Shown in pieces: positions 19,700 through 35,123 of a DNA stretch of 54,873 bases. Source of the stretch: Planctomycetota bacterium (GTDB taxonomy: Bacteria; Planctomycetota; Planctomycetia; Pirellulales; Thermoguttaceae). Location of the stretch: positions 1 through 54,873 of the forward strand of contig JAKPGL010000051.1 in assembly GCA_029550925.1 (NCBI GenBank), given 5' to 3'. The notes under the pieces are model-generated. The model did not search any database and had not been told where the DNA came from. It worked only from the letters and a program-made list of their open reading frames with translations. Position 1 is the first letter of the stretch. Each line of letters starts with the position of its first letter. Made by a program: the position numbers and the translations under genes.

Positions 19700-20458
19700 T
19701 CAGCAGGAGCGGAGTCGGCACTGTTTTTGGTCGAGCATCCGATCCTCCGGACAGAGTTGCAGCAGAACGCTTTCCGCCCCCGTGCTGGGAATGGTGTAGG
19801 TCTTCAGCTTCCGCAGTGCCAGGCCGTGGGCCAGGCCGTAATGCCGAGCTTCGCCTCGTTCCTGCACCCAACCGGGGCCTTTGAGGACCAGCATCCGGTC
19901 GAACTGAGGCCAATAAGGCTTGAACCACTTGAGCAATTCCTTCAGAGGTGCGACCGCCCGAATGGTCAGCGTATTGAATTGTTCTTTGGCCAGGATTTGT
20001 TCCGCCCGCCCGTGAAACACCGATGCCTTCAACCCGAGCTTTTGGATGATTTCCTCGGCGACGCGGGCCTTTTTCCCGATCGACTCGGAAAGGCAAACCC
20101 GCAAATCCGGCCGAAGAATGGCAAGCAGAGCGCCCGGCACGCCGCCGCCCGAACCGACATCCAGCACCTTTTCGCCCTGCTGTAAAAACTCGGCAAAAAC
20201 CAGTGCGTCGAGAACGTCCCGGCCGACGAACTTTTCGTAGTCGGTATGCCGGGTGAGGTTCACCTTTTGGTTCCAGTCCCAAAGCAATTGGGCAAACCGG
20301 TCCAGAAGGGCCGACTGGTCGGCGGGAAGCTGGATACCGTATCGGACCAACGCCGCCGCGAAACTGTCCCCTGAAATTGGCGCGGTCGGACTGGGGGAGG
20401 AACAGTCCGTAGGCAACGTCTTGTCTGGATTGCAGAAAGGATCAGGTTCCATTAGCAT
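19700..20458 (-). CDS. rsmG: 16S rRNA (guanine-N7)-methyltransferase RsmG
   Basis: About 252 residues. RsmG (GidB) uses SAM to make m7G527 in 16S rRNA. Motifs: WNQKVNLTRHTDYEKF, the SAM loop VLDVGSGGGVPGALLAI, LSESIGKKARVAEEI, and VAPLKELLKWFKPYW. The start is uncertain: ATG 20458 and ATG 20452 are both close to the family start, but no clear Shine-Dalgarno sequence is present. The N-terminal ~30 residues are Pro/Ser-rich and not conserved. The frame further upstream (to 20731) is not supported. Confidence 0.9.
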   Translation of the reverse strand: MLMEPDPFCNPDKTLPTDCSSPSPTAPISGDSFAAALVRYGIQLPADQSALLDRFAQLLWDWNQKVNLTRHTDYEKFVGRDVLDALVFAEFLQQGEKVLDVGSGGGVPGALLAILRPDLRVCLSESIGKKARVAEEIIQKLGLKASVFHGRAEQILAKEQFNTLTIRAVAPLKELLKWFKPYWPQFDRMLVLKGPGWVQERGEARHYGLAHGLALRKLKTYTIPSTGAESVLLQLCPEDRMLDQKQCRLRSC

Positions 20459-20733
20459 AGAAAGAAATAAAAGGGCGCATGAAAACAGTGGTTCCGGAGG
20501 AATCGGCAGATTTTTCCGTATTCTCTGGAGTGCTCGGTCATTATAGGTTATTCTACTGAATTCCTGCGTGCGCGGGAATGATGTCCACAAGAATACCGCC
20601 GGCGAAAGAATACCACCCGAAAAAATGCCTCGTTGATACGCCCATGACAAAAGGGGCGAACCACTTGCCTGCCCGCTTGATGTAGCGTTGTTTCCTTCCC
20701 CAACATTTCCTTTTCTTTCTGGAGGTTGCAATC

Positions 20734-22071
20734 ATGCGTCGAACGATTTCGCGGCGAACATTGCTGAAGACGGCGAGTGTAGCCGGAGTAGGGGCTTTGT
20801 TGAACCCGGCTCGGGTATGGCCGATGGGCCAGTCGCCCAATGAGCGGCTTCGGTGTATCGGCATTGGGGTGGGAGGCCGAGGAGCGGCCAATGTGAATGA
20901 CTGCGCCGCCGCCGGCGCCGAGTTTGTGGCCCTGTGCGATGTCGATGACCGGCGGGCCGGTGAAACCTTCAAACGGTTCCCCAACGCCAAAATCTACAAG
21001 GACTTCCGTAAAGCCTTGGAGGAACTGGAGCAACGCTGCGACGCCGTGGTCGTTAGCACGCCCGATCATACCCATGCCCCGGCGGCGGCCATGGCCCTCC
21101 GCATGAAAAAACACGTCTATTGCGAAAAGCCGCTCACCCATAATGTCTATGAAGCCCGCCTGCTGACCGAACTAGCCGAGAAAAACAAACTGGTTACCCA
21201 GATCGGCACGCAAATTCACGCCGGCGACAACTACCGTCGGGTGGTCGAATGGATTCAGGCTGGGCTGATCGGCCCGGTGGAAGAGGTGCACGTCTGGCAT
21301 CCGGTGCGATATAGTCCCGGCGATCGGCCGAAAGACACGCCGCCCTGTCCGCCAGGGCTGGATTGGGACCTGTGGCTGGGGCCTGCGCCGGAGCGGCCCT
21401 ATCACCCGGCTTATGTGCCGGGCAGTTGGCGAGGCTGGTGGGATTTCGGCAACGGCGGCATCGGCGATTTCTTCTGCCATTATGTCGATTTGGCCTTTTG
21501 GGCCTTGGACCTGAAGTATCCAACCCATGTAGCTACCGAAGGCCACCAGCCGGTCCATCCGGAAAGCTGCGCCCAATGGCTGACCGTTCGGTATCAGTTT
21601 CCCGCCCGGGGCAAGTTGCCGGCGGTACGACTGACCTGGTACGACGGCGGCAAACAGCCCGCCTGGGAGGAGTTGGACCGTCGGCTGGCCGAGATGACCG
21701 GCATCCAAGAACAGATACCCCGCCAAGGAGCCGGGGTCCTATTTGTCGGGAAAACCGGCATGGCCCTGGCCGACTACGGCGCCCGGCATCTACTGCCCAA
21801 AAAGAAGTTCGCCGACATGAAACTGCCCGCGCCGACCATCCCGAGGTCCATCGGTCATCATCGGGAATGGGTCGAGGCGTGCAAAACGGGCGGCAAAACG
21901 ACCTGCCATTTCGGCTATTCCGGCCCGCTCACCGAGTCGGCCCTGTTGGGCAATGTTTCGTACCGGGTCGGCTCGCCGCTGGAGTGGGACGCCGCTGCGA
22001 TGAAAGCCTCCAATTGTCCCCAAGCCGACCGCTTCCTCCGCCGAGAGTATCGCCGGGGGTGGACGTTGTAA
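20734..22071 (+). CDS. Tat-exported Gfo/Idh/MocA-family oxidoreductase
   Basis: A 445-residue protein. The N-terminus has a twin-arginine signal (ISRRTLLKTA, then a hydrophobic stretch to about residue 25), so it should be exported folded. The Rossmann fold follows: IGIGVGGRGAANV (about 42-54), ALCDVDD, and the NAD(P)-family motif HVYCEKPLTHN. The C-terminal domain is the large planctomycete type with WDLWLGPAPERPYHPAYVPG and WWDFGNGGIGDFFCHYVDL. These enzymes oxidise or reduce sugars and related polyols; the substrate cannot be read from sequence. Planctomycetes carry many such paralogues. CTGGAGG precedes the ATG. Confidence 0.9.
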   Translation: MRRTISRRTLLKTASVAGVGALLNPARVWPMGQSPNERLRCIGIGVGGRGAANVNDCAAAGAEFVALCDVDDRRAGETFKRFPNAKIYKDFRKALEELEQRCDAVVVSTPDHTHAPAAAMALRMKKHVYCEKPLTHNVYEARLLTELAEKNKLVTQIGTQIHAGDNYRRVVEWIQAGLIGPVEEVHVWHPVRYSPGDRPKDTPPCPPGLDWDLWLGPAPERPYHPAYVPGSWRGWWDFGNGGIGDFFCHYVDLAFWALDLKYPTHVATEGHQPVHPESCAQWLTVRYQFPARGKLPAVRLTWYDGGKQPAWEELDRRLAEMTGIQEQIPRQGAGVLFVGKTGMALADYGARHLLPKKKFADMKLPAPTIPRSIGHHREWVEACKTGGKTTCHFGYSGPLTESALLGNVSYRVGSPLEWDAAAMKASNCPQADRFLRREYRRGWTL

Positions 22072-22082
22072 GTAGGACTGAG

Positions 22083-22160
22083 CCTCGGACGTTGGTCCGA
22101 GAGTGAAAAGGGTTAAAAGGAGCTTCGGACATTGGTCCGAAGGTTAAAAGGGTTAAAAGG
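22083..22160 (+). repeat. Two tandem hairpin units after the oxidoreductase gene
   Basis: Two units of about 40 bases. Each has a stem-loop (CTCGGAC-GTTG-GTCCGAG at 22084-22101 and CTTCGGAC-ATTG-GTCCGAAG at 22123-22142) followed by AAAAGGGTTAAAAGG. The stems differ in sequence yet remain paired. A third hairpin (GCCGCTCC/GGAAGCGGC) follows near 22181-22202. They may stabilise or end the upstream mRNA. Confidence 0.7.
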
Positions 22161-22264
22161 CTGCGCTGAAGGTGAAAGAGCCGCTCCCGTTAGGAAGCGG
22201 CCTGCGATAAGCGACCAGCCACCGATGCGCACCGATTCGACATATCCTGGAGGATCGATACTCC

Positions 22265-23089
22265 ATGCCGCTCCTGGAGCCTGAAGAATACATTGAACAG
22301 GCCTATTTCTTCCGCGCCCTGCGGGAACGCATGCACATGGGCGTTTCTACGCAAGAGCTGCTAGCCATTTTACGGCATGAGGTGTTGGGCATTACCAAGC
22401 TGCCGATGGCCATTGATTTCATGGCTACGGAACTTCGACACACCGGCGGGTTTGCCGGTGCGATGCGTCGGCTCAACCACTACTTCACGCCGTTCCAAAC
22501 TTTCGTCATGGCCGAGGCCGAACGACCGGAAGGAAAATTCGACTTCCGAATCGGCCTGGAAATCCTCGAAAAAGAAGCAGAGTACCGGGCCAAAGGCGTC
22601 ACGCCCCAAGGTCTGTTTCTGTATCAATTCGAGGCGTTGTGCCGAAATCGTCTCGGATACGACGAAGGCTTGGACGCTATGGCACAAGACCCCATGTACG
22701 ACGACGCCTGGCGGGAATGGATCCATACGGTTCGTCGGCAAATCGGCCTGGTCGATCTGGCCGACATGATCTACGTGCGCAGCGAAGAATACCTGAAAAC
22801 GCACGACCATCCAGGTAAACCGATCCTGTTTGGCGAAAAAGAAGGCCGCATTGCCCTGGCCAACCGGAAACGAGACCCGCTGTATCTATTTTCGGCCCTG
22901 TCCCGGCAGTTGGGCTATCCGAGCGTGCCCCGGCCGCGCCCCGAAGACGCCGCTCCACAGCTTATTCCGCAGCTTATGCGGCGAATGGAACGCGTCGAAA
23001 CCCGGCTGAAACTGCTGGAAGAAGAACTCCGCGGCGGCATCGACATTAGCCGATTCTTCGGCCCGCCAAAACCGGAAGGGGAAGGGTGA
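22265..23089 (+). CDS. Conserved hypothetical protein with C-terminal coiled coil
   Basis: A 274-residue soluble protein without signal peptide or membrane segment. GGAGGATCGATACTCC precedes the ATG. It is mostly helical. Near the C-terminus a short coiled coil (about 238-260, MERVETRLKLLEEELRGG) is followed by a Pro/Gly tail. The sequence is composed normally and clearly coding (well-balanced third positions, no stops over 825 bases). I do not recognise a family; it has the feel of a planctomycete-restricted cytoplasmic protein. It stands alone between the oxidoreductase and pduS, with a 500-base gap after it. Confidence 0.65.
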   Translation: MPLLEPEEYIEQAYFFRALRERMHMGVSTQELLAILRHEVLGITKLPMAIDFMATELRHTGGFAGAMRRLNHYFTPFQTFVMAEAERPEGKFDFRIGLEILEKEAEYRAKGVTPQGLFLYQFEALCRNRLGYDEGLDAMAQDPMYDDAWREWIHTVRRQIGLVDLADMIYVRSEEYLKTHDHPGKPILFGEKEGRIALANRKRDPLYLFSALSRQLGYPSVPRPRPEDAAPQLIPQLMRRMERVETRLKLLEEELRGGIDISRFFGPPKPEGEG

Positions 23090-23606
23090 AACCATGTAGC
23101 ACCGGGCGGAAACTCCACACCCCGGCAGAGCCGGCAGACCCAGGGCTTTTGGCCGATCTTGGAGAAATCGTCGAGAAAAATTGGCCTTGGATTCGCCGAA
23201 AGACGCTACAAAAGAACATCCTCTTGTCGCATCCGGTTCGATAAGCTTCCCACTTCTTCATGCCAACGGCCTGCCAGAGTTGGTCCATTGTTTCCCCCCT
23301 CTTTTTAACAAGAATTGGATGGGAAAAGGCTTATGTATTTATGCATTTTACTCGTCTCCTTCCGTCGTGCAATACAGCGGATATATTTTTTGCTAGATGG
23401 AAAGGAAAATAACTATTTAGAGGGGGGGCTTCCCCGTAATTTTGGCGATCCTTAAAAAAGAAAACCGTTTGGCGTGGGACAATAGAATAGAGAAGGTTTT
23501 CCGCATAAATGTATGGCCGGAAAACTACCCTTCGGTCTCCCGGCAAGCTATACTAGGAAAACTAGCCTTCGTGAGGATAAAGAGGATAAAGAGGATCAAA
23601 CAGATT
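23090..23606. other. Intergenic region upstream of pduS
   Basis: About 517 bases, AT-richer than its surroundings after 23280, with no convincing gene. It probably holds the pduS promoter. A run of three copies of a 9-base unit AGGATAAAG (last copy altered) at about 23574-23600 precedes the start and repeats GAGGA, which may serve as ribosome-binding sequence. Confidence 0.5.
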
Positions 23607-24938
23607 ATGCCGAAAGTAACGGTCGAAGAGGTACGGCAGGCCGGGGTGGTCGGCGCCGGTGGGGCAGGGTTTCCGACCCATGTGAAGCTGACGGCCCAAG
23701 CCGATACGGTGCTGCTGAACGCCGCCGAGTGTGAGCCGCTCCTGCACAAAGATAAGGAATTGCTCCGGCACGAGACCGACGCGGTGCTTGCCGGATTGGC
23801 CGCCGCCATGGAGTTGGTCGGCGCTCGGCGGGCGGTGATCGGCATTAAAGAGAAATACCATGAGGTAATCGACTGCTTGCGTGCTCGGCTTGGCAAGGGG
23901 ATGGAGTTGGCCCCGCTGCGGGACAGCTACCCGGCAGGCGATGAGATGATCCTGGTATATGATGTGTTGGGTCGGGTCGTGCCGCCGGGCGGCTTGCCCC
24001 TGCACGTGGGGGTGGTGGTTACCAATGTCGAGACGGCCTTCAATATCGCTCGATCTAGCCAGGAGCCGGTTACGGAAAAATACCTTACCGTCGGCGGAGC
24101 GGTCCGAGAACCAATCACCCTCCGGACGCCGATAGGCGTTACGATCGGCCAGTGTGTCGAGGCTGCCGGCGGCCCCACGGTACCCAATCCCTACTACATG
24201 ATCGGTGGGGTGATGATGGGCCGACTGGAAACCAATCCGCAAACCCTGGTCGATAAAACCACCGGCGGGATCATCGTGCTGCCGGAAGACCATCCGGTCA
24301 TCCAACGGCGATTACAAAATTGGGCGCAAATCGCCCGGATCGGACGTTCCGCTTGTGATCAGTGCAGTTTCTGCACCGAACTTTGCCCCCGTTGGCTCCT
24401 GGGCCATCCGATCGAGCCGCATCGGGCCATGCGAAGCCTGGGCTTCAACCTGGTCGGCCAGGCCAATGTGCAGGGAACGCTCTTTTGCTGCGAGTGCAAC
24501 CTGTGCAGTTTGTATTCCTGTCCGGAAGGTTTGGACCCGAAAAACGTCTGTGCAGAAAATAAACGTCGGCTCCTGGCGGATAAACAACGCTGGACCGATC
24601 CGCCGTTTGTACCGGATCGGCCCCGGCTGCACATGGCCAACCGCAAAGCGCCGATGGCTCGCCTGATACATAAACTGGCCCTGACCGGCTTCCGAAACGA
24701 AGGCCCATTACAAAGCGAACTTTTAACCACCCGCCGGGTGGGAATTTTGTTAAAACAGCATGTCGGAGCGCCTTGTACGCCGGTGGTTCAGCCCGGCGAC
24801 CGGGTCCGCAAAGGACAATTGGTAGGCCAGCCGCCAGAACAAAACGGCAAACCCGCCCTTGGCGCCCCGGTCCACGCCTCGTTGGACGGCCGGGTAACCG
24901 CGGTGGAGGAAAAAGTCGTTTGGATTGAAGCAGACTAA
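23607..24938 (+). CDS. pduS: PduS-type NADH/flavin/Fe-S electron-transfer protein (RnfC-like)
   Basis: About 443 residues. Order: an RnfC/Nuo51-like nucleotide and FMN region with GAGGAGFPTHVK, an SLBB-like part (TVGGAVREP), then two cysteine clusters for [4Fe-4S] centres (CDQCSFCTELCP and CCECNLCSLYSCP), and a C-terminal lipoyl-like hairpin (PVVQPGDRVRKGQLVG). In Pdu microcompartments PduS passes electrons from NADH to reduce cobalamin. The frame opens at 23442, but ATG 23607 starts at the family N-terminus after repeated GAGGA. RnfC is the main alternative, but the next gene is PduT-like and no other rnf genes are here. Confidence 0.88.
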   Translation: MPKVTVEEVRQAGVVGAGGAGFPTHVKLTAQADTVLLNAAECEPLLHKDKELLRHETDAVLAGLAAAMELVGARRAVIGIKEKYHEVIDCLRARLGKGMELAPLRDSYPAGDEMILVYDVLGRVVPPGGLPLHVGVVVTNVETAFNIARSSQEPVTEKYLTVGGAVREPITLRTPIGVTIGQCVEAAGGPTVPNPYYMIGGVMMGRLETNPQTLVDKTTGGIIVLPEDHPVIQRRLQNWAQIARIGRSACDQCSFCTELCPRWLLGHPIEPHRAMRSLGFNLVGQANVQGTLFCCECNLCSLYSCPEGLDPKNVCAENKRRLLADKQRWTDPPFVPDRPRLHMANRKAPMARLIHKLALTGFRNEGPLQSELLTTRRVGILLKQHVGAPCTPVVQPGDRVRKGQLVGQPPEQNGKPALGAPVHASLDGRVTAVEEKVVWIEAD

Positions 24939-24962
24939 CCAGCAGGAAGAGTGGACACCATT

Positions 24963-25046
24963 GGCTCAGGCTGGACAGCCTAAGCTACGTAACCCCGTAA
25001 CGCCGCCTGTTTAGGCGGCGACGTACCGCCCGCTGTTTAGCGGGCG
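24963..25046 (+). repeat. Hairpin array after pduS (one B-type and two A-type modules)
   Basis: A B module (CAGGCTGGACAGCCTAAG within 24963-24993) is followed by two A modules: CGCCGCCTGTTTAGGCGGCG (25001-25020) and CGCCCGCTGTTTAGCGGGCG (25027-25046). Each A module is an 8-bp stem with a GTTT loop. The array lies between pduS and pduT. Confidence 0.9.
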
Positions 25047-25111
25047 CCAGGAGCACCATACCAACTCCCTCACACGGCAAAAATCAATTAAAGTAGAAGG
25101 TCCGTAGTTCA

Positions 25112-25684
25112 GTGAGTAAACCCATGTCCGTACCTAAATCCATTGGAGCAGTGGAACTATCCAGCATCGGCCTGGGCTACCAGGTCGAAGACACGATGCT
25201 CAAAGCGGGCAAGGTAGAACTGGTGATTGCCCGGACGATTTGTTCGGGCAAATACCTGATCGTAGTTGCCGGCTCCGTGAGCGACGTGGAAGCTGCGGTG
25301 CGCGCGGGCGTTCAGGAGGCCCGCGACGCCCTGATCGACTCGTTGATCTTGCCGAATGTGCATGAATCGGTCTTCCCGGCGCTTGGCCAATCGGTGGCTT
25401 TGCCGCACGATCACCAGGGCGCCTTGGGGGTGGTGGAGACGTTTGGCGGGGTGAGCGTTCTGGCGGCGGCGGATGCGGCGGCCAAGGCGGCCAATGTAAC
25501 GCTGTTCCGGATTCATGTGGCGATGGCCTTGGGCGGCAAGGGGTTTTTGCTCCTCACGGGCACGGTGGCGGATGTTCGGGCCGGGGTGCAGGCCGCAGCC
25601 GAAGAGGCCCGACGCCGCGGCCTGTTGGTCTCCGAAGTGGTGATCCCACGCCCCCGAAAAGAACTATTGGCCGAATACCTCTAA
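25112..25684 (+). CDS. pduT: PduT-type tandem BMC-domain shell protein with Fe-S ligand cysteine
   Basis: A 190-residue protein with two BMC domains (about 10-95 and 105-185), as in PduT (184 residues). Shared segments include ARTICSGKYL, DSLILPNVHESVFPAL, GVVETFGGVSVLAAADAA and the terminal VVIPRPRKEL. C44 matches Salmonella Cys38, which holds a [4Fe-4S] cluster at the pore of the PduT trimer. GTG 25112 follows AGAAGG at 11 bases; ATG 25124 is an alternative start. It pairs with pduS, but no other shell or enzyme genes of a microcompartment are in this window. Confidence 0.92.
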   Translation: MSKPMSVPKSIGAVELSSIGLGYQVEDTMLKAGKVELVIARTICSGKYLIVVAGSVSDVEAAVRAGVQEARDALIDSLILPNVHESVFPALGQSVALPHDHQGALGVVETFGGVSVLAAADAAAKAANVTLFRIHVAMALGGKGFLLLTGTVADVRAGVQAAAEEARRRGLLVSEVVIPRPRKELLAEYL

Positions 25685-25805
25685 TTCCTTTTCCTATTCT
25701 TTCTATTTTTTCTATTTTCTCAATTCTATCCGGCAATAAAGGGACGCCCTCTGGCCTTGAAAAGCATTTCTTGGCGTCCACATCTTGTACTAGTCTGTCG
25801 TCAGA

Positions 25806-25827
25806 CACAATATATTGTGCCTTTTTT
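25806..25827 (+). terminator. Possible terminator downstream of pduT
   Basis: The perfect palindrome CACAATATATTGTG (25806-25819) is followed by CC and TTTTTT. The stem is AT-rich, so it is weaker than usual. A second inverted pair GGACGCC/GGCGTCC lies at about 25741-25780. A pyrimidine-rich stretch runs from 25685 to 25725. Confidence 0.45.
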
Positions 25828-25989
25828 GTGTTTTAATGTGTAAGATACTCCTCTAATGGAGGAAAAGGGTCGGAGAGTTTTTGAGTTTTTTTTCAAAATT
25901 TTGAGAAACTTTCCAAACCCTTCTGGGTTAGATTGCTCAGTGGTTGTTGGGATTTTTCGTGTGGTCCTTATGATGAGAAGGAGTGGAAG

Positions 25990-26526
25990 ATGCGTAACGT
26001 CGTCTGTGGATTGTTGGTGGCTGGATTGGCATTGGCGATGGGCGGGTTGCTTCTGGCTGCTGAGGGGAAAAAACCCAAGCCGCCTCGGCCCGAAGGAGCA
26101 CCAGAATTCGGTCGGATGGATCCGTTCGCCTTGCTTAGCCGGTTGAATCTCTCCGAGGAACAAAAACAAAAAATCGAAAACCTCCGCAAAGAGTACGAGC
26201 CGAAATTGGCCGAACTCCGTGCGAAGCTCGAGGGCATCCTCACCGAGGAGCAAAAGAAAGCTCGCGAAGAAGCCATCAAAAAGGCCAAAGAATCCGGCAA
26301 AAAAGGCCGGGAACTCTTCGAGGCGATCCGCAACGCCTTCCAACTGACCGAAGAGCAACAGAAACAGATGCAAGAAGTCAGAACTCAAATGACCCAACTG
26401 ATGCAAGAAATTCGGGGCAAAGTCGAGGAAATCCTTACCGAGGAACAAAAAGCCCAACTTCGGCGGTTCGGCTTCGGCCCAGGCCGTCCGAAAGGCAAAC
26501 CCGGCGTGAAACAAGAAAAACAATAA
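25990..26526 (+). CDS. Exported helical protein with repeated LTEEQ motifs
   Basis: A 178-residue protein. Signal peptide residues 1-23 (Leu/Ala/Gly-rich, cleavage near LLLAAEG). The mature part is helical, Lys/Glu/Gln-rich, with four spaced motifs of the type [LI][TS]EEQ (LSEEQ, LTEEQ three times). This pattern recalls Spy/CpxP-like LTxxQ periplasmic proteins and the many similar planctomycete exported proteins, but I cannot confirm homology. The tail is basic. The ATG at 25990 has GGAGTGGAAG before it; the longer frame from 25933 lacks a signal peptide. It ends about 170 bases before a strong terminator. Confidence 0.7.
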   Translation: MRNVVCGLLVAGLALAMGGLLLAAEGKKPKPPRPEGAPEFGRMDPFALLSRLNLSEEQKQKIENLRKEYEPKLAELRAKLEGILTEEQKKAREEAIKKAKESGKKGRELFEAIRNAFQLTEEQQKQMQEVRTQMTQLMQEIRGKVEEILTEEQKAQLRRFGFGPGRPKGKPGVKQEKQ

Positions 26527-26693
26527 CCTCCCACATTTTGTGAAACAGGGTTGAGGCCGAGGTATTCGGCCGACTCGGAAAATCCAGGAATGCCCCACGA
26601 AAAGGTTCGGTTGGTTTTCTCCTCATGCGAGAAATGAACCGCTAAACTGTTTCGGGAGGGCTGCTTTCTGGAGCTCCGTGCAACTCAAGGCAG

Positions 26694-26735
26694 AGCCGTC
26701 CGCAGGTTCCCGCCAGCGGACGGCTTTTTGTTTTT
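26694..26735 (+). terminator. Strong Rho-independent terminator
   Basis: AGCCGTCCGC (26694-26703) pairs perfectly with GCGGACGGCT (26716-26725), followed by TTTTTGTTTTT. It would end transcripts from the LTEEQ-protein gene. The ~170 bases between stop codon and terminator contain smaller hairpins and could be a long 3' UTR or a small RNA. Confidence 0.85.
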
Positions 26736-26836
26736 CCACCGGAGGATATACTAAAAGCCGGGGGGTTTTCCTAGGAATAACTCCTTCGGATTCCACCTTT
26801 CGGAGCATCCACGGAGCGCATCCAAAAGGCGATTGC

Positions 26837-27808
26837 ATGACAGCGGCGGGATGGCAATGGGTAGTGCTGGCGTTTTTGGCCGCGGTGGGCGGGGTGATCG
26901 GCAGTTTCTTGAATGTGGTCGTTTATCGGCTGCCGGCTGGCCGGAGCATTGTTTGGCCTGGTTCACATTGTCCCGGCTGTGGGCGTCCGATCCGCTGGTA
27001 TGACAATCTGCCGGTACTGAGCTGGTTTTTGCTTCGGGGACGGTGTCGGGACTGCGGGGGGGCGATTTCCTGGCGCTATCCGGCTGTGGAAGCGGCGACC
27101 ATGGGGCTATTTCTCCTCTTAGGATGGTGGGAACTGATGGGCGGCGGTGGACATTTGCCGGAACGACCGCTCCGGCTTGGTTCGACCATCCTATGGACGC
27201 CCTACACGGTGCGGGAATTGGCAGCCCTGTATGTGTATCATCTGATGCTTTGTTGCACTCTGTTGGCTGCCGCCCTGATCGAGCATGACCATCCGAAGGC
27301 GGGCGGTTCGGTATGGGTTCGGCTTTTTTTGCCGGGTGGAGTGTGGGGAATCGCGGCGGCTTTTGTTTGGCCCACCGTGCATCCTGTGCCAGCGGTCGGC
27401 CCCGGGCCGGTGGGTTGGATGGGCGGACTGGTAGGAGTCGTGGACGGCCTGGTGGGACTGGCTGCGGCGGCAGGACTCGGTCTGCTTTGGGGATTGCTGT
27501 CCGCTCTGCTGAGAATTTCCTCCCGGAAAAAACTGGGAACGACAGGATTTTGGACGCCGGTGGCGGGGGCAACCGGTTTAGTCGGCTTATATCTGGGTTG
27601 GCAGGCCGGCTTGGCCGTGGGGCTGATAAGCGGCCTTTTCTGGATGCTCAGCGGTGTGGCAGCCCGATACGTCTTCCCCCCTCGAACCGACCCTGGCCAA
27701 CCCCGTCGAGCCTTTCCGATTCCATTTTCCGCCTGGCTTGCCGGGGGAAGTCTGCTGTGGGTCCTTTTTTGGAACCAGTGGATCGCTTGGGGCAAAGCTT
27801 TTGTTTAA
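26837..27808 (+). CDS. Prepilin peptidase-like protein with an apparently degenerate peptidase domain
   Basis: A 323-residue multi-spanning protein. The N-terminal methyltransferase-type domain is typical of type IV prepilin peptidases: [12 protein letters not shown], then a CPGC...CRDC double pair (about residues 45-73) around [14 protein letters not shown]. The C-terminal A24 peptidase region has several membrane helices, but the first catalytic Asp motif (ID...PD) reads IEHDHPKAG, and the second motif GxGD is absent. The usual downstream sequence does not contain a replacement that I can see. So cleavage activity is doubtful. The ATG at 26837 is chosen from the family N-terminus; the long frame from 26678 crosses the terminator. 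No pilin genes are near. Confidence 0.78.
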
Positions 27809-27936
27809 CTGGAGTTTTGCAAACTTGAGATTTCCACCGATCTTGTACACTATCGACCCTCAAAAATCTCGGGATTTTTGACGGACCTGTTCCGTGTACG
27901 AACACCTGAACAAGCCCATATTGCAAAACTCCAGTT
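27807..27936. repeat. 130-bp foldback element with 16-bp inverted ends
   Basis: AACTGGAGTTTTGCAA (27807-27822) is repeated exactly inverted at 27921-27936. Inside is a near-perfect inner pair (TTGTACAC and GTGTACGA) and a central palindrome TCAAAAATC-TCGG-GATTTTTGA (about 27860-27881). The whole region can fold into one long hairpin. It begins within the stop codon of the prepilin peptidase-like gene. It could be a small mobile element or a terminator-like structure. Confidence 0.75.
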
Positions 27937-28046
27937 TGGTTTAAAATACATCTGCCTCCCGGGTCTTCCCTTTGGCCCTCTGTTCTCTTGTTGCGAAGCG
28001 CCTTTTTATCCCACCAGTAGCCCCACTAGGAAAAGGAGACCGAACG

Positions 28047-30716
28047 ATGCGGCGCCCCCAATTGGCCTTTTCGCAAGGAAAGAAGTGTTGGACGGCGGCG
28101 GTTTGGTTGCTAGCCGTCGGGCTGTTTTGTCAGGTAAGCCAATCGGCAGACGACCCGGCCGAATCGTTCGACTATTTCCGAAATTCCTGGAATGTGGTTG
28201 GCCTGAAGGATTATCAATATGGAGCTCGAATTACGCCGGACAACGCCATCCTGCTTGCCGACGGCGGCAGAGTGGAGTTTTGGTTCGGCGCGCAGCAAGA
28301 GCCGCTCTCCAGGAAACAAACCAAACGCTGTCTGGAAGGCTGGTTGCCGGTCATTCTGCTTCAGGCCCAGGAAGGCCAGGTGCGCTATGAGTTCTGTTAT
28401 TGGGCCGCCCCGCTGCCAACGGTCCAGGACTGGCAAAAGGCGTTCTATTGGCCCACCGAAGGGGAAAACTTCTTGGTCTGGGCCAAGGTAACCGCCACGA
28501 ACCAGGGCGACCGATTGGCCGAGGCGAAGGTCCGGGTCCGCATTGGACGGCCGAAAACCGGCCAGCAAACCGAGGAGCAATTCGGCTGGGCGCTACCGGG
28601 CGGGGCGTCGCAAACGGCCGTCGTTCGGGTCCCTTTCTTCCCGGAACCTAAGCCGGAGCGGTTTGCCAAGGAGGCCCCGAACCTCTGGCTGGATCGCACG
28701 GTGCAGTTTTGGAAGGGGCTTTTGCAGAACGAGCAGGCGGCCCGGATCCAGGTACCGTGTCGAAAGGCCGCCGAAGCCCTTCTGGCCGCTCATGTGTGCC
28801 AGATGTTGGTAAGCGATCACGGTCGGCTCCACGGCGGCGAAGGATTTTACGACGAGTTCTACATCCGGGACGGCGCCTATCAGATCATGGAGTTGGAAGA
28901 GGCGGGGCTTTGGGACCCGGCGGCCAAGGCCATCGAGTTTTACCTGAAAGCCCAGCGTCCGGACGGCCGATTCGAGACGCAGCGCAACCAGTTCGACGCC
29001 AACGGCCAGGCGGTCTGGACGCTGTGGCAGTACTGGAAGATCACCGGCAACAAAAGTTTTCTGCAGCGGGCCTATCCGGCGATGGTGCGGGCGATGGAGT
29101 GGACCAAGAAGGCCCGGCGGGAGGCACCGGCCAATAGCCCATTTGCCGGCCTTCTGCCTCCGGCACCGGCCGACGGCGAATACCTCTGGGACGGCAAACA
29201 TCATATTGTCGGCTACGACTTTTGGAACCTTCGGGCAATGGAGCTGGCAGCGGATGCGGCTCAAGTCCTGGGCCGGGCCGAGGAAGCCAAGCAATGGGCC
29301 GACGAGGCGGCTCAATACCGGCAAGCTATCGAGGCGGCATGGCGGCGGACCGGCCTGGCCTACTTCCCGCCCAGTTGGGAAAAAGAGGGTACCCACTGGG
29401 GCAATACGGAAACCCTTTGGCCAACGCCGATTTGGCCAGCGGAGGATTCCCGGGCCTCTGCCCTGATCCAGCATGTGCGCGGGGAGCATGGGGGCGGCTA
29501 TTGCGAGGGGATCATTCGCTGGTTAGGCGCCGCCGGAGCCATTCATCCGTACATGAGCGCTTACACCACCATGGCCGATCTGGTCCGAGGTCGAGATGAA
29601 CAGGTGGTCGAAGATTTCTATTGGTATTTGCTCCATAGCACAGCCACCCATGCGTTTCCGGAAGGTATCTTCTACAGGCGGCGGTTTGCCTGGAGCGATA
29701 CGATTCCGCATCCGACCGGGGCGGCCAACTATGCCCTGATGCTTCGGCACATGCTGGTACATGAACAAGGCCAAGAGCTGCACCTGCTTCGGGCGGCGCC
29801 GGACTGGTGGCTTGGGCCGGGACAAAAAATCCTGGTCCAGCGGGCGCCCACGCATTTTGGGCTGGTGTCGATGGTGGTGGAAGGGCTGCCTGACGGGGTG
29901 AAAGTCTCCCTCCAAGGGCCGGACCGGGAAAAACCTCGCCGGATGCTGCTGTTTTTGCCAGAAAACCGACGGCTGCTAGAGCCGATCCCGGGTTGCCAGG
30001 TGGTTTATCGGACGGCGCAAAAACAGCGGTGGGATTTTCCCACCGTGGTGCGGAAGTATGAGGCAGTGGCGCCGCCGGCCAAGCAGGCGATTGCCTGTCT
30101 GGTGGCTCTGCCGCTGGGGCAGCCGATTCGGGCGGATAAGTGCGTGTTTCTGGACCTCTCGAAGGCGGCCAATACGGACCCGTTTACCGGGCCGTTCGGG
30201 GTACTCAATCCGGGCGAAGACCTGCTGATGAAAGGGTTGCCGGTAGGCCGAACCACGGCGGACGGCGTGCCGTTTGAAATCCTCGACCCGGCCAAAAACG
30301 AGGGCCGGGCGTTGGTGGTCCTGCATTCGCCGCGGGCGCCGAAACCAGAGCGGTTCCCCAAGGAGGTGGAAATCCTGGTGGGGTGCCAGGGCCGACGGCT
30401 CTTCCTGCTGGGCAATGTCCACGGGTGGGACCCCCAGGACGGCGGCGCCGAACCCACCGGGGCAGTGGCCGAGTATGTCCTCTGCTATGCGGACGGCCAA
30501 AAGCAAACCATCCCGCTTATTACCGGACAGACGATCGACGATTGGGCCAGCCCGCCGGACGCCACGGATGTTCGGACTGTACTGCGCGGCAAAAGGTGGC
30601 ACCTGAACCTGCTGGCAGTGCAACTCCGGCCGGTCAAGGTGGAAAAGCTGATTTTCCGGGATTTAGGCACCCCGGCTGCCCCTCTGCTTGCCGCCGCCAC
30701 TGTCGAACAAGAATAA
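28047..30716 (+). CDS. Exported six-hairpin glycosidase-like protein
   Basis: An 889-residue protein with a signal peptide (cleavage near residue 31, ...CQVSQSADD). After a beta-rich N-terminal part (to about 230) comes an (alpha/alpha)6-type region (about 230-600) recalling glucoamylase, GH37/GH63 or rhamnosidase folds: GEGFYDEFYIRDGAYQIM, AIEFYLKAQRPDGRF, FDANGQAVWTLWQYW, and the repeated pattern of helices with Trp and acidic residues. A beta-rich C-terminal domain follows (about 640-889). Such proteins cleave or modify polysaccharides; the family and substrate cannot be fixed here. GGAG lies 8 bases before ATG 28047. It stands alone. Confidence 0.75.
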   Translation: MRRPQLAFSQGKKCWTAAVWLLAVGLFCQVSQSADDPAESFDYFRNSWNVVGLKDYQYGARITPDNAILLADGGRVEFWFGAQQEPLSRKQTKRCLEGWLPVILLQAQEGQVRYEFCYWAAPLPTVQDWQKAFYWPTEGENFLVWAKVTATNQGDRLAEAKVRVRIGRPKTGQQTEEQFGWALPGGASQTAVVRVPFFPEPKPERFAKEAPNLWLDRTVQFWKGLLQNEQAARIQVPCRKAAEALLAAHVCQMLVSDHGRLHGGEGFYDEFYIRDGAYQIMELEEAGLWDPAAKAIEFYLKAQRPDGRFETQRNQFDANGQAVWTLWQYWKITGNKSFLQRAYPAMVRAMEWTKKARREAPANSPFAGLLPPAPADGEYLWDGKHHIVGYDFWNLRAMELAADAAQVLGRAEEAKQWADEAAQYRQAIEAAWRRTGLAYFPPSWEKEGTHWGNTETLWPTPIWPAEDSRASALIQHVRGEHGGGYCEGIIRWLGAAGAIHPYMSAYTTMADLVRGRDEQVVEDFYWYLLHSTATHAFPEGIFYRRRFAWSDTIPHPTGAANYALMLRHMLVHEQGQELHLLRAAPDWWLGPGQKILVQRAPTHFGLVSMVVEGLPDGVKVSLQGPDREKPRRMLLFLPENRRLLEPIPGCQVVYRTAQKQRWDFPTVVRKYEAVAPPAKQAIACLVALPLGQPIRADKCVFLDLSKAANTDPFTGPFGVLNPGEDLLMKGLPVGRTTADGVPFEILDPAKNEGRALVVLHSPRAPKPERFPKEVEILVGCQGRRLFLLGNVHGWDPQDGGAEPTGAVAEYVLCYADGQKQTIPLITGQTIDDWASPPDATDVRTVLRGKRWHLNLLAVQLRPVKVEKLIFRDLGTPAAPLLAAATVEQE

Positions 30717-30881
30717 GTCCGGTTCTTCTGTGGGCCATTGGGACCGGTAAGGTCGTTGACGCTTCGGGGCTCTTCCTTTAAATTATCTTTTTCTGGTTTC
30801 TACGCGGAAATTCTACCGGAGCAACCACTTGGATATAGATTCCATCCTGAAAAGATACTACTGCCAGTGAACGGAGGATCC

Positions 30882-32951
30882 ATGAATCGAGCAGCAAGCG
30901 TTGAACAATTGGCTATCAATACGATCCGCACTTTGTCGATGGATGCCGTGGAAGCGGCCCGCAGTGGGCATCCCGGCACGCCCATGGCCTTAGCGCCGGT
31001 CGCTTATGTGCTGTTTCGGGAACGGCTCCAGTACGATCCGGAGCGGCCCCATTGGCCGAATCGGGATCGGTTTGTGTTAAGCTGCGGCCATGCGTCGATG
31101 CTTTTGTATGCGGCGTTGCACTTGGCGGGCGTCAAACAGCTTGGGCCGGACGGGCAGCCGACTGGCGAACTAGCGGTTCCTTTGGAAGCCATTCGGCAAT
31201 TCCGGCAACTGGGCAGCCGATGCCCTGGCCATCCGGAGTATGGCCACACCAGCGGCGTGGAAACCACGACCGGGCCGTTGGGCCAGGGGGTGGCCAACAG
31301 CGTCGGTATGGCCATTGCCGCCAAATGGTTGGCCGGCTATTTCAATCGGCCCGGTTTCGAGCTGTTTAACTTCCGGGTTTATGCCCTTTGCAGCGATGGC
31401 GACCTGATGGAGGGCATCGGCTCGGAGGCCGCCTCCCTGGCCGGCCATCTGCAACTGGATAATCTCTGCTGGATCTATGACGATAACCGGATCACGATCG
31501 AAGGCCCCACTTCGCTCGCCTTCAGCGAAGATGTTGGGATGCGGTTTGCCAGCTATGGCTGGAATGTGCTGCGGGTGGCCGACGTGAATGAACTGGGCTG
31601 TTTGCGGAACGCATTGGCGGGGTTTGATCGAGAAAGCCAACGGCCTACCTTGATCATCGTCCGAAGCACGATCGCCTGGGGCGCCCCGACGAAACAAAAT
31701 CATCATGAATCCCACGGAGCGCCGCTGGGCGATCAGGAGGTCCGGGGAGCGAAAGCCTTCTACGGTTGGCCGGAAAACGAACAGTTTTGGGTCCCGTCTG
31801 AAGTCCTGGAGCATTTCCGAGCGGCGAACTTGGCCACTTCCCATGAACAAGCCGACCAGTGGTATGCCCTGCTGGCCGAGTATCGCAAGGCGTATCCTGA
31901 CCTGGGCGCGGAGCTTCAGTGTCTGCAAGAAGGCCGATTGCCCGACGGTTGGGACGCTCAGTGGCCCGCCTTTCCGGCAGATCCGAAGGGAATGGCCACC
32001 CGGGTGGCTTCCGGCAAGGTGCTCAATCATGCGGCCCGGCGGGTTCCGTGGCTTTTGGGTGGCTCGGCCGATCTGGGACCGTCCAATCGCACCGAACTTG
32101 CCTTCCCCGAAGCCCACGGCGATTTTTCCGTTACCAACCCATCGGGGCGGAATTTCCATTTCGGCGTGCGGGAACATGCGATGGCCGGCGTGTGCAACGG
32201 GATGGCCCTGTGTGGGCTTCGTCCGTATGCGGCGACGTTTTTTGTGTTTACCGATTACATGCGGCCGTCGATGCGGCTTGCGGCGATGATGGGCCTGCCA
32301 GTGCTTTACATCCTGACGCACGATTCCATTGGGGTAGGCGAGGATGGACCGACACATCAGCCGGTCGAACACCTGGCCGCCCTGCGGGCCATCCCCAATA
32401 TGATGGTCATTCGGCCAGCCGACGCCAATGAAACCGCCGAGGCGTATCGGGTAGCATTGCAACGGCGGGACGGACCGACCGCCCTGGTGCTAACCCGGCA
32501 GAACTTGCCGGTGCTGGACCGAGCGAAATTGGCTCCGGCTTCTGGGTTGGCAAGGGGGGCATATATTTTGTCCGAGGCGGCTGGCGGAAAGCCGGAGGTA
32601 CTGTTGATCGGCACGGGGAGCGAAGTCTCCCTTTGTCTGGCCGCCCAGGAAAAACTTCAGGCCGATGGCGTCCCGGCACGGGTGATCAGTATGCCCAGTT
32701 GGGAGCTATTCGAGGCGCAGCCGGCGGAATATCGGAAAGAGGTATTGCCGCCCGGCTGCCTGGCCCGGGTGGCGGTGGAAGCAGGGATTCGGCAAGGTTG
32801 GGAACGTTACCTTGGTCCCCAGGGCCGGTTCGTGGGTATGGAGAGCTTCGGCGTTTCGGCCCCGGAAAAGGTGCTGTACAAGCATTTCGGCATTACGCCG
32901 GAAGCGATTGTCGCCTGCGTCCGAGAGGCCCTGCACGCCCTTCGGCAGTAA
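30882..32951 (+). CDS. tkt: Transketolase
   Basis: A 689-residue thiamine-diphosphate enzyme of the pentose phosphate pathway that moves two-carbon units between sugar phosphates. Motifs: ARSGHPGTPMALAPVAY, the TPP-binding SDGDLMEGIGSEA with the following ASLAGHLQLDNL, SIAWGAP-like segment with NHHESHGAPLG, then the pyrimidine domain with HFGVREHAMAGVCNGMAL, and LTHDSIGVGEDGPTHQPVEHL. The ATG at 30882 has CGGAGG before it; the frame extends to 30738 without support. The length matches bacterial transketolases. No other pentose-phosphate genes adjoin it. Confidence 0.97.
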   Translation: MNRAASVEQLAINTIRTLSMDAVEAARSGHPGTPMALAPVAYVLFRERLQYDPERPHWPNRDRFVLSCGHASMLLYAALHLAGVKQLGPDGQPTGELAVPLEAIRQFRQLGSRCPGHPEYGHTSGVETTTGPLGQGVANSVGMAIAAKWLAGYFNRPGFELFNFRVYALCSDGDLMEGIGSEAASLAGHLQLDNLCWIYDDNRITIEGPTSLAFSEDVGMRFASYGWNVLRVADVNELGCLRNALAGFDRESQRPTLIIVRSTIAWGAPTKQNHHESHGAPLGDQEVRGAKAFYGWPENEQFWVPSEVLEHFRAANLATSHEQADQWYALLAEYRKAYPDLGAELQCLQEGRLPDGWDAQWPAFPADPKGMATRVASGKVLNHAARRVPWLLGGSADLGPSNRTELAFPEAHGDFSVTNPSGRNFHFGVREHAMAGVCNGMALCGLRPYAATFFVFTDYMRPSMRLAAMMGLPVLYILTHDSIGVGEDGPTHQPVEHLAALRAIPNMMVIRPADANETAEAYRVALQRRDGPTALVLTRQNLPVLDRAKLAPASGLARGAYILSEAAGGKPEVLLIGTGSEVSLCLAAQEKLQADGVPARVISMPSWELFEAQPAEYRKEVLPPGCLARVAVEAGIRQGWERYLGPQGRFVGMESFGVSAPEKVLYKHFGITPEAIVACVREALHALRQ

Positions 32952-33002
32952 TGGCGCCAGGTCTGCGGCAATCCCAAAGGATTTGGCGTGGATTCGGCTA
33001 TT

Positions 33003-33770
33003 TCACTGGACCGGTTGGCCGGCGCGGAAAGTGCGTTCGGAAAGTTTTCGGCCTTGCTCGTCCCAGGTGATGGCTTTGCCGTCGGGTCGGCCTTGCTTGT
33101 AATGGACTTGGGTCTTCATTTGGCCGTTAGGATGCCATTCGGTAACCGGTCCGTCAAGCTGGTTTTGGACGTAAGTTTCTTCGCGTAGTTTTTGGCCCTG
33201 CTCGTTCCAGTAGATCCATTTGCCGTGGCGTTGGCCTGCCTGGTATTCTTCCTGGCGGATGGGTTTATCCGGTTGACCTGGCCTCCAATAGGTCCACACG
33301 CCGTCCAATTGGCCGTCCTTGTAGGTCCCCATTTTCGCTTTGGCGCCGTCTTCGTAGTAATAGACCCATTCGCCGACTCGTCGGCCGTCTTCATATTTGC
33401 CTTCGCAGAACTTTTGGCCGTTCGGATGCCATTCGGTGTAGAGACCGTGGTTGACGGTAGAGGCGTCGCTGAAGTATTTGACCGTCCTTTCGATCCGCAC
33501 TTTCCCGTTGGGAAATGTGTCCCGTAGGGTCCGGACATCCACCAGTTTCGGCGGCGGGATGGAGGGGTCTGCCTTGGGTTTCGGCGTCAAAAGGTTTTTC
33601 AGATCGACCTCCGGCCCAGCGGCGGTGGGAGACGTTGTCGTTTTTTCTTTTTCCTGTTCCTGACGTTCTTGCTCGGCGAAGAACTCCTCGGCCCGATCTT
33701 TGCCGCACCCGCTGAGGAACAAACACAACAGAACCGCCAGAAAACCCAAAGGCAGTAGGCTCGTTTTCAT
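33003..33770 (-). CDS. Lipoprotein with MORN-type repeats
   Basis: A 255-residue protein. The N-terminus is a lipoprotein signal with lipobox LSGC at about residues 18-21. A Glu/Gln-rich linker follows (about 25-60). From about 80 onward there are about six repeats of the MORN-variant type: YTEWHPNGQKFCEGKYEDG, WVYYYEDGAKAKMGTYKDG, WTYWRPG, WIYWNEQGQK, VTEWHPNGQMK, ITWDEQGRK. Such repeats are found in YwqK-like proteins; they are mostly protein or membrane contact modules. GAGGAG precedes ATG 33770. An IS66-type element is inserted 38-46 bases upstream. Confidence 0.85.
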   Translation of the reverse strand: MKTSLLPLGFLAVLLCLFLSGCGKDRAEEFFAEQERQEQEKEKTTTSPTAAGPEVDLKNLLTPKPKADPSIPPPKLVDVRTLRDTFPNGKVRIERTVKYFSDASTVNHGLYTEWHPNGQKFCEGKYEDGRRVGEWVYYYEDGAKAKMGTYKDGQLDGVWTYWRPGQPDKPIRQEEYQAGQRHGKWIYWNEQGQKLREETYVQNQLDGPVTEWHPNGQMKTQVHYKQGRPDGKAITWDEQGRKLSERTFRAGQPVQ

Positions 33771-33815
33771 GGTCGATGTTTCTCCTCGAACGAGAGCTTC
33801 GGAAAATCCTTTCGG

Positions 33816-33971
33816 GTAACATTTCAGCCGAATGCAAAGGAGGCTTATTTTAAGGCGGAATTTACCCGGGATTGTCACTGCCGCTCTAGCGGCAGTCCAG
33901 AACACTCTTCAAACACCTGGATTCCCGCTTGCGCGGCAGTGACAAGGTACTGCATTCGGCTAAAATGTTCC
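33816..33971. mobile_element. IS66-like non-autonomous inverted-repeat element, copy 1
   Basis: 156 bp. Left end GTAACATTTCAGCCGAATG (33816-33834) is inverted at 33951-33971 (ending CGGCTAAAATGTTCC). It is flanked by the direct repeat CCTTTCGG (33808-33815 and 33972-33979). Its interior pairs CACTGCCGC with GCGGCAGTG. Ends starting GTAA and 8-bp target duplications are known features of IS66-family elements. It has no open frame. Confidence 0.85.
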
Positions 33972-34127
33972 CCTTTCGGGAGGCAACCCAAGGCACACCT
34001 CTCTTTTGAATTGTTGCATATAGAGAAGCTTCCGTCTATGGAACGGAAAGGGCTTCCTCCCCCAATCTAGGGCCGAGACATGTTCGGTTCTAGGAGAACA
34101 TCCCCTCCTTGTGGGGGGGCACAGAAA

Positions 34128-34212
34128 TAAGAGGCTCTAACAAAACGGCCTTTCCTACTCACTTCCTCCAGCGAGGAAAATAGGTCGGCATCGTTTTGTT
34201 AGAGCTTCTAAA
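34128..34212. repeat. Second inverted-repeat family (II), copy 1
   Basis: About 84 bp. TAAGAGGCTCTAACAAAACG at the left is inverted at the right (CGTTTTGTTAGAGCTTCTAA, about 34192-34211) with two mismatches. A small hairpin (TCCTCCAGCGAGGA) sits in the middle. A related copy in inverted orientation is at 54716-54811 and a diverged, interrupted one at 41449-41537. Confidence 0.8.
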
Positions 34213-34416
34213 TGCCAACCGTAATCCGGTGGTATCCCCCCCTGGGAAAGAACGTGCCCGGGGCATCCCCCCTCGGTAGCTAGGGATCCGTCCATTTGGC
34301 GACAACCGAGGGAAAGCTCAGGGACGCCGTTTGCCTGGAAATGAGACGGCAGATTTTCTTCTCCTCAACAGAGATGGCGTGCTGCCAAACCGATGGGTGT
34401 TCTTTTAACGCACTCA

Positions 34417-34444
34417 ATAGAAAAGGGGGCCTCAGAGGCCCCCC
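34417..34444 (-). terminator. Minus-strand terminator-like hairpin
   Basis: GGGGGCCTC (34425-34433) pairs with GAGGCCCCC (34435-34443). On the minus strand it is followed by TTTTCTATT. It is about 360 bases downstream of the HU gene stop, so it may end that transcript or be part of an unrelated repeat. Confidence 0.55.
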
Positions 34445-34497
34445 TGAAAATAGTCATGCCGAGAGTCTGGAGATACGCCGGAAGCCCCCTCTGAATT

Positions 34498-34602
34498 GAG
34501 CCGGTTGCGTTGTGGGACGTCAACCACTATAGCTTTGGAAGCCTAGCGTCATGATTCCTATCGCAAGCGGTTGTAGGTCGGAAGCGACAACGCAACCGGC
34601 TC
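34498..34602. repeat. 105-bp element with 16-bp perfect inverted ends
   Basis: GAGCCGGTTGCGTTGT (34498-34513) is exactly inverted at 34587-34602. The 8-base sequence CTGAATTG occurs at both sides (34491-34498 and 34605-34612), slightly offset from the ends, so it is only a possible target duplication. No open frame is inside. Confidence 0.7.
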
Positions 34603-34799
34603 CGCTGAATTGGCAGAGAGGCAGGATTGGGAGAGAGAATCCTGTTCGGAACCCCCTCCTACCGGCTTTTGCCTCGGCCAAGCCGAAAGGGATGGATGTC
34701 AAAATCCTTTTAGACTCCAAGCGCAAAAATCCCCGCCGCCCCTTACAGAACAAGAGGGGAGCGAAGAAACGCGTGGAAGCCTTTTCCGGCTAGGTCCCG

Positions 34800-35123
34800 C
34801 TATTTCACCATATCTTTCAGGGCCTTTAACGGCCGAACACGCACACGAACCGTAGCCGGTTTGGCCGGGATGTCCCGAATCTCGCCCGTGAGGGGGTTTC
34901 GGACGCCTTTGCGGGCCTTTTGGGCGGGAATTTTCTTCTTGACGATCTTGACCAAACCTGGGATGGCGAACACGCCAGGGCCTTTGAGGGCCTTTTTGAT
35001 CTGGTCGGCCAACGCATCCAACACAGCAGCTACCTGTTTGCGAGTCAGTTGGGTAGCTTCGGCAATGTTACCGACGATCTGACTCTTCGAGGGCGCCTTC
35101 GCAGTACCGGCTGCTTTTGCCAT
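34800..35123 (-). CDS. HU-family DNA-binding protein
   Basis: A 107-residue member of the HU/IHF family. After a basic, Ala-rich N-terminal tail (about 14 residues), the helical dimer part KSQIVGNIAEATQLTRKQVAAVLDALADQIK is followed by GVFAIPGLVKIVKKKIPAQKARKG, which corresponds to the GxGxF region, and by the DNA-binding arm with RNPLTGEI and VRVRPLKALKDMV. It binds and bends DNA, shaping the nucleoid. A near-perfect ribosome site (AAGGAGG) lies 9 bases before the ATG. It lies alone, with long gene-free regions on both sides. Confidence 0.9.
   Translation of the reverse strand: MAKAAGTAKAPSKSQIVGNIAEATQLTRKQVAAVLDALADQIKKALKGPGVFAIPGLVKIVKKKIPAQKARKGVRNPLTGEIRDIPAKPATVRVRVRPLKALKDMVK

Follow-up and report, generated by a model that had tools for sequence, protein, structure and literature searches.

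A pduS-pduT pair as a probable satellite of a PVM-type microcompartment that has no lactate/malate dehydrogenase gene behind its aldolase in a Thermoguttaceae genome

Bacterial microcompartments (BMCs) of the Planctomycetes-Verrucomicrobia (PVM) type usually have, as the last gene of the locus, a lactate/malate dehydrogenase (LDH)-type gene that is predicted to supply the core alcohol dehydrogenase function, regenerating NAD+, and that, besides the aldehyde dehydrogenase gene, is the only PVM gene able to do so (PMC4207490). A different set of redox proteins is known from the Pdu organelle, where Citrobacter PduS, an NADH-dependent protein with flavin mononucleotide (FMN) and two [4Fe-4S] clusters, binds the shell protein PduT; with midpoint potentials of -150 mV for PduS and +99 mV for the PduT cluster, the path runs downhill to the shell, and electron passage out of the shell has been proposed (PMC2982820). 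Here, we analyzed a pduS-pduT pair (pduST) on a 54,873-nucleotide stretch, hereafter the window, of contig JAKPGL010000051.1 from a Planctomycetota bacterium of the family Thermoguttaceae (assembly GCA_029550925.1).

PduS and PduT also occur in the B12-free organelles of the glycyl-radical-enzyme microcompartment (GRM) types GRM1, GRM3 and GRM5, the last of which shares a class II aldolase with the PVM type. Their role in such organelles was called an open question in a GRM review (PMC6325248). The GRM loci carry the pair within the locus beside a glycyl-radical enzyme; none was recognized in the main microcompartment locus of our genome, although no genome-wide search was made. Satellite BMC loci, in which a shell gene lies away from a complete locus, may include enzymes (Axen 2014; Sutter 2021), and a locus with BMC-associated genes beside a shell gene has been called 'satellite-like' (PMC4207490). 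A satellite as such is, thus, ordinary. The combination of an electron-transfer enzyme with the coincident loss of a core enzyme was not met in the accessible text on those satellites. Likewise, no title or opening abstract line among the matches listed by a full-text search dealt with PduS/PduT in a PVM organelle or with an LDH swap, and neither 'PduS' nor 'PduT' occurs in the main text of PMC8217296, a catalogue from 2021 whose supplements may list BMC-T satellites of PVM loci. The apparent replacement of a core enzyme was not found in print in these sources.

The pair comprises the following features:
23607..24938, plus strand: pduS, FMN-domain flavoprotein with two [4Fe-4S] motifs, 443 amino acids, ATG start
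24354..24521, plus strand: PduS dicluster region from C250 to C305, CxxCxxCxxxC and CxxCxxCxxxxC
24723..24920, plus strand: RnfC barrel-sandwich domain at the PduS C terminus (amino acids 373-438; PF13375, 1e-14)
25112..25684, plus strand: pduT, tandem BMC-domain (BMC-T) shell protein, 190 amino acids, GTG start
25241..25243, plus strand: codon of PduT C44 in C-S-G-K-Y, predicted ligand of a pore [4Fe-4S] cluster, one per protomer

PduS matched the Pfam families Complex1_51K (2.4e-44), SLBB (5.7e-07), Fer4_17 (a 4Fe-4S dicluster; 6.3e-12) and RnfC_N (1e-14), the same four-domain make-up as given for PduS in PMC6325248. Both tetracysteine motifs, identical in pattern to those of Citrobacter PduS (PMC2982820), are kept in 80/80 aligned homologues. 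Homology to congeners starts at the ATG at 23607 (residues 1-443 aligned), and a start of the longer open reading frame (ORF) at TTG 23442 is unlikely. PduT contains two PF00936 stretches (3.3e-41), and its best PDB matches include 3n79, deposited as PduT (3.7e-41), and 3pac, a 'shell protein' (4.1e-44); ATG 25127 is an alternative start. The C-S-G-K-Y motif around C44 conforms to the BMC-T pore cysteine motif C-P/S/A-G-K/R/S-Y/F (PMC6325248), with cysteine in 53/54 homologues. These domains, Fe-S motifs and C44 bear out the identification of a pduS-pduT pair at 23607-25684 in an earlier note on this DNA. The NCBIfam scores speak against a firm name: PduT scored 121 bits against the 250-bit cut-off of eut_PduT and is a PduT-like protein outside that equivalog as curated, while PduS scored 227.5 against the rnfC cut-off of 246. 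The names pduS and pduT, therefore, rest on domains, motifs and pairing. The nearest PDB sequences to PduS are RnfC-type chains (9eri, 7zc6, 8ahx), and PduS shares the FMN-binding fold of the RnfC/NuoF family but has its barrel domain at the C-terminal end, with no Rnf genes among the identified neighbors. With the Pdu proteins the pair shares domain make-up, tetracysteine motifs, pore cysteine and gene adjacency; it differs in lying apart from the main locus, in which no B12 enzyme was recognized. A scripted scan placed pduT at most 456 bases downstream in 51/80 named pduS loci, and homology search added at least two more, L109 and L113, where pduT had been missed by the ORF picker yet lies beside pduS. 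Separately, locus L178 (genome G048) encodes a 42% PduT homologue with serine at the pore cysteine, and PduS was not matched in G048; loss of the cluster and loss of its partner may have gone hand in hand there.

Across the 4.9-Mb assembly, PF00936 matched six times, twice in PduT, in two BMC-H genes on contig C173 and twice in a BMC-T protein on contig C17. Contig C173, which is not that of pduST, carries a complete PVM microcompartment locus with the gene order deoR, pduL, BMC-H, BMC-H, ackA, BMC-P, aldehyde dehydrogenase, BMC-P, RpiB-like, BMC-P and class II aldolase. The earlier note had described the pair as lacking the rest of a microcompartment, which is wrong at the scale of the genome; the BMC-H, BMC-P, aldehyde dehydrogenase and aldolase genes that it proposed to look for were all found, whereas no B12 enzyme was recognized in the main locus. 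These are the components described for the PVM locus (PMC4207490), PduL and aldehyde dehydrogenase included, and their order is that of 19 loci from outside the family. The genome differs in the absence of LDH behind the aldolase, in the pduST satellite and in a further satellite with a DapA-type and a BMC-T gene. We term the main locus a 'PVM variant' rather than standard PVM because of the missing LDH. In its deoR-to-aldolase stretch, the aldehyde dehydrogenase is the sole recognized oxidoreductase, and the single Ldh_1_C match in the genome is a 36% homologue on contig C7.

This gene content bears on the catalytic role of PduS. Family name and homology would suit a cobalamin (corrin) reductase, as in the Pdu organelle, and Citrobacter PduS does reduce and bind cobalamin (PMC2982820). 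However, all BMC-H genes found in the genome lie in the PVM locus, where no B12 enzyme was recognized (a genome-wide search for B12 families was not made), and the PVM locus of a one-contig relative, G024, likewise yielded none. We, therefore, consider a corrin reductase very unlikely here. The further satellite (L008:8280-10015, genome G000, contig C17) consists of a DapA/DHDPS-family aldolase gene followed by a BMC-T gene. Such genes are adjacent in 12/15 loci examined, our own included, on opposite strands in L209; L204 has no DapA match, and L208 and L214 have another BMC type. None of the papers among the matches listed by a literature search contained the word dihydrodipicolinate. This satellite may provide the PVM organelle with an additional aldehyde or sugar acid. 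Its presence in the same genome would allow pduST to serve it as a separate organelle, but it showed neither BMC-H nor BMC-P genes, and in G024, which carries pduST together with the main locus, there are four BMC domains in total, leaving no room for a second BMC-T. This arrangement is extremely improbable.

The relation between pduST and the shell was assessed in 81 Thermoguttaceae genomes, 75 with shell domains and six, belonging to three genera, without. PduS, counted at ≥53% identity with fragments included, was present in 65/75 versus 0/6 of these genomes (Fisher 2.5e-5), and PduT, counted with fragments and with one 42% homologue that lacks the cysteine, in 64/75 versus 0/6 (Fisher 3.8e-5), both tests being uncorrected for kinship; 60 of the 75 genomes had both. 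The best PduS-like matches in the six shell-less genomes were at 33-35% identity or weaker. In a class-wide sample of 148 genomes, 116 of them with the PVM aldehyde dehydrogenase (E 1e-60 or better), PduS was detected in eight genomes, five at ≥68% and three at 33-38% identity, and PduT in the same five. These were four members of the family and G192, Aquisphaera insulae JC669 (listed contamination 6%). Physical linkage varies. In G024, main locus and pduST are ~2 Mb apart, and in some genera of the family, members have pduS and pduT on separate contigs. The pair lies directly before the deoR gene of the PVM-type locus in L114, L120, L121 and L123 and behind the aldolase in L128; L051 has pduT alone behind the aldolase; and in L054 (G004) 2.8 kb with two ORFs separate the end of pduT from deoR. 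Based on this linkage in relatives, the pduST satellite and the main locus look like parts of one unit.

The earlier note had offered two explanations for the isolated pair, a satellite of a microcompartment elsewhere or a small Fe-S redox pair with another role. The second has in its favor that pduST stands alone in the window, as it does in most relatives, and that G234 (L143; completeness unstated) has PduT as its only BMC-domain protein. Against it, no shell-less family genome keeps pduS or pduT, 21/22 further pduS genomes searched carry other BMC proteins, and several genomes have pduST inside or adjoining a PVM locus. The comparison with related genomes that the note proposed, aimed at pduST without other BMC genes, thus returned none among the six shell-less family genomes and, for PduT, G234. 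A free-standing function outside any microcompartment is highly improbable on these data, and the first explanation is borne out by the C173 locus and by the way pduST follows shell proteins in the family: pduS-pduT is very probably a two-gene satellite of the only recognizable microcompartment of this genome, which is of the PVM type. Farther afield, a Candidatus Schekmanbacteria metagenome-assembled genome (MAG; G242, L159) encodes a 60% PduS, and the one BMC stretch fetched from it (L189) does not represent a PVM locus.

LDH follows the aldolase in 19/19 main loci first fetched outside the family, with one extra ORF between in L078, and is absent there in 16/16 family main loci. The former were drawn from 112 class genomes that lie outside the family and carry the aldehyde dehydrogenase; the latter are the loci readable at this point among 20 fetched without regard to LDH. 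Loci whose sequence ends early were not counted (L048, L049, L056 and L199 in the family; L188, L191, L192 and L194-L198), nor was L189, which is no PVM main locus, and three loci stand outside these sets: L128 (partial family locus, no LDH), L166 (genus g35, LDH present, fetched for LDH) and L169 (class, LDH present). L039 was counted as lacking LDH, its 28% match (E 5e-5) being a GFO/IDH/MocA-like protein. Genome-wide, PVM-type LDH (69-73% identity) was detected in 3/81 family genomes, all of genus g35, and in 108/112 aldehyde-dehydrogenase-positive class genomes outside the family. The class total was 110/148; among its 116 aldehyde-dehydrogenase-positive genomes, 108 had LDH and eight, four Thermoguttaceae plus G156, G199, G175 and G147, did not. 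Sorted by pduST, class PVM genomes had LDH in 1/5 positive versus 107/111 negative cases (Fisher 4.7e-5, uncorrected for kinship). A second group of pduST loci, of Phycisphaerae type, showed a similar picture: of 20 stretches fetched, ten were readable past the aldolase (seven Phycisphaerae, three assigned to Planctomycetota only), with LDH absent in eight and present in two. The eight genomes without it had no LDH match above 39% elsewhere. As for a replacement oxidoreductase, ORFs behind the aldolase had a Pfam dehydrogenase in none of eight LDH-less loci (one ORF per locus, not always the nearest, four of them without a family), namely the PVM loci of the four pduST-negative genomes (L160, L161, L162 and L163) and four pduST-positive loci (L180, L181, L186 and L193).

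In the lactate/malate dehydrogenase family, arginine at the substrate position favors dicarboxylates. In the matching stretch, 23/25 PVM-type LDH copies have AGLRRKP, and the PVM LDH may, therefore, work as a malate-type shuttle rather than a lactaldehyde reductase.

Joining the redox properties of Citrobacter PduS and PduT to the predicted function of the PVM LDH, we infer a route of NAD+ recycling by electron export that would work without LDH. The organelle of this genome would serve the breakdown of the methyl-pentoses L-fucose or L-rhamnose. PduT would take its place in the PVM shell as a trimer whose pore holds a [4Fe-4S] cluster, and PduS, docked on the inner face of PduT, would oxidize the NADH produced by the lumenal aldehyde dehydrogenase as it converts lactaldehyde to lactyl-CoA. 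Electrons would then pass from FMN through the two PduS clusters and PduT to a cytosolic acceptor, such that NAD+ is regenerated within the shell and no share of the substrate has to be reduced. Under this proposal, LDH would have become redundant and been lost more than once. The observations behind it are the main locus, the co-occurrence, the linkage in some relatives, the motif conservation and the LDH absence. Assembly in the PVM shell, direction of flow, the electron acceptor and a causal role in the loss of LDH are deduced from these. Given the satellite link, we regard the role in NAD+ recycling and electron export as reasonably probable; the complete explanation, a PVM satellite in which PduS/PduT recycle NAD+ and make LDH dispensable, is favored on balance, with a shade less confidence.

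Gene trees offer a possible sequence of events. For the g35 LDH, the sister group consists of LDH sequences from seven other families of the order (SH-aLRT 90-92, unstarred), a position close to that expected of an inherited Thermoguttaceae LDH; a partial copy from an eighth family, f9, is placed elsewhere. In turn, g35 PduS (L098 and L107) branches from within the family (support 91, unstarred), and the two Phycisphaerae-type loci that have LDH are interspersed with loci that lack it, suggesting an ancestor with LDH followed by repeated losses. Taken together, pduST seems to have come first, and several losses of LDH to have followed. The closest grouping of Aquisphaera PduS is with a Phycisphaerae sequence, within a clade mostly of family sequences, and Aquisphaera aldehyde dehydrogenase groups with its own family, a pattern that suggests horizontal transfer of pduST to Aquisphaera. 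Contamination might instead explain it, although the named strain and the similar G+C content of the two stretches (0.669 and 0.685) speak otherwise. Tentatively, and with slightly less than even confidence, a transferable pduS-pduT satellite may have changed the PVM organelle from one whose redox balance is kept internally by a dehydrogenase to one that passes electrons to the cytosol through Fe-S clusters in its shell pores, in Thermoguttaceae and separately in Phycisphaerae-type lineages, with repeated loss of LDH.

A number of observations weigh against these interpretations. Neither gene was found in 6/75 shell-domain family genomes (G006, G023, G037, G056, G068 and G070; 72-92% complete). 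G156, G199, G175 and G147, from three families and 4/111 of the pduST-negative PVM genomes, lack both pduST and LDH, and LDH absence, thus, does not need pduST. Conversely, both coexist in Aquisphaera insulae, in two Phycisphaerae-type genomes and in g35, where two of the three LDH genomes have PduS and one has PduT in pieces, and the third has LDH directly behind the aldolase (L166). The tree support for repeated LDH loss is unstarred, with g35 as the exception in the family. On the aldehyde dehydrogenase tree, pduST changes four times and LDH eight times; four independent contrasts give LDH in the opposite state in zero to three and never in the same state (p 0.25-1, not significant), in a sign test that cannot reach 0.05 with fewer than six pairs of differing LDH. 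The Phycisphaerae-type set was gathered through PduS and hence offers no pduST-negative genomes as a baseline; it consists mostly of MAGs of unstated completeness. Other LDH/MDH homologues (30-42% identity) exist in many genomes, one of them in our own. Finally, the clusters of Citrobacter PduS are oxygen-labile (PMC2982820), which is awkward for an aerobic host.

The pduST-negative genomes without LDH, the lineages holding both and the non-significant tree-corrected contrast are also what would be expected if pduST were a PVM satellite with a role other than NAD+ recycling, such as inward electron transfer, the supply of clusters or a function at the pore, and if LDH loss were coincidental. 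Such a coincidence has to accommodate LDH absence in 16/16 family and 8/10 Phycisphaerae-type loci versus 4/111 pduST-negative class genomes, as well as a deoR-to-aldolase stretch in our genome with no recognized oxidoreductase besides the aldehyde dehydrogenase; we consider it rather unlikely. The replacement of LDH by pduST, accordingly weighed as a hypothesis, would mean that a predicted NAD+ recycler was seemingly swapped for PduS/PduT within one organelle, with living lineages that hold both. If true, this would be a natural replacement experiment presenting PduS/PduT as more than a corrin reductase, namely as an electron exporter that recycles NAD+. Matched relatives provide a testing ground for the electron-export idea, and PduS/PduT could serve as building blocks for connecting engineered shells electrically to the cytosol.

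Around the pair, a GFO/IDH/MocA-type gene and a gene without Pfam match lie upstream of pduS, and an LTXXQ-motif gene, a prepilin-peptidase N-terminal-domain gene and a glycosidase-like gene lie downstream of pduT. In 6/6 loci compared from other genera, pduS and pduT are the common genes and no neighbor travels with them; the sole exception is a 27% match of the common GFO/IDH/MocA family several kilobases away in L095. Two genes downstream of pduT are also shared by both congeners. The flanking glycosidase was rejected as a partner, as it is beside pduST in 0/8 loci compared from relatives. This 914-amino-acid glycoside-hydrolase-like protein (27972-30716), 2.3 kb from pduT, has a weak alpha-L-rhamnosidase hairpin-domain match (PF17389, 27.4 bits versus a cut-off of 24.5).

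Two noncoding features accompany the genes:
23549..23554, plus strand: TATACT, possible -10 element of the pduS promoter, at the same place in both congeners by eye
25001..25046, no strand assigned: two palindromes in the pduS-pduT gap, copies of a dispersed repeat that we do not count as part of the system

The pattern ATACTRGRAAR, drawn from these -10 sites, occurs once in the window against 0.10 expected. By eye in three congeneric genomes, this -10-like resemblance is the only likeness between pduS and deoR promoters, and no operator shared by pduST and the main locus was seen beyond it. The earlier note had held that a complete microcompartment locus immediately outside this neighborhood, or clear co-regulation, would make the pair ordinary: a complete PVM locus exists in the genome but is not next door, and promoter likeness stops at the -10-like element. 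The hairpins that it had placed between the genes are real, with perfect stem-loops at 25001-25020 and 25027-25046. The CTGTTTAG/CTGTCTAG palindrome recurs in the window at 36648-36796 and 38567-38696, however, and is missing from the pduS-pduT gap in both congeners (G031 and G054), and a regulatory part in pduS-pduT was rejected for this dispersed repeat. Rfam at gathering scores gave no match in 20000-40000. The repeat is composite, with palindromes of variable stems and CTGTTTAG or CTGTCTAG cores beside a GGCTCAG...CTAAGCTACGTAACG unit, and looks like a family of the repetitive extragenic palindrome (REP) or miniature inverted-repeat transposable element (MITE) type.

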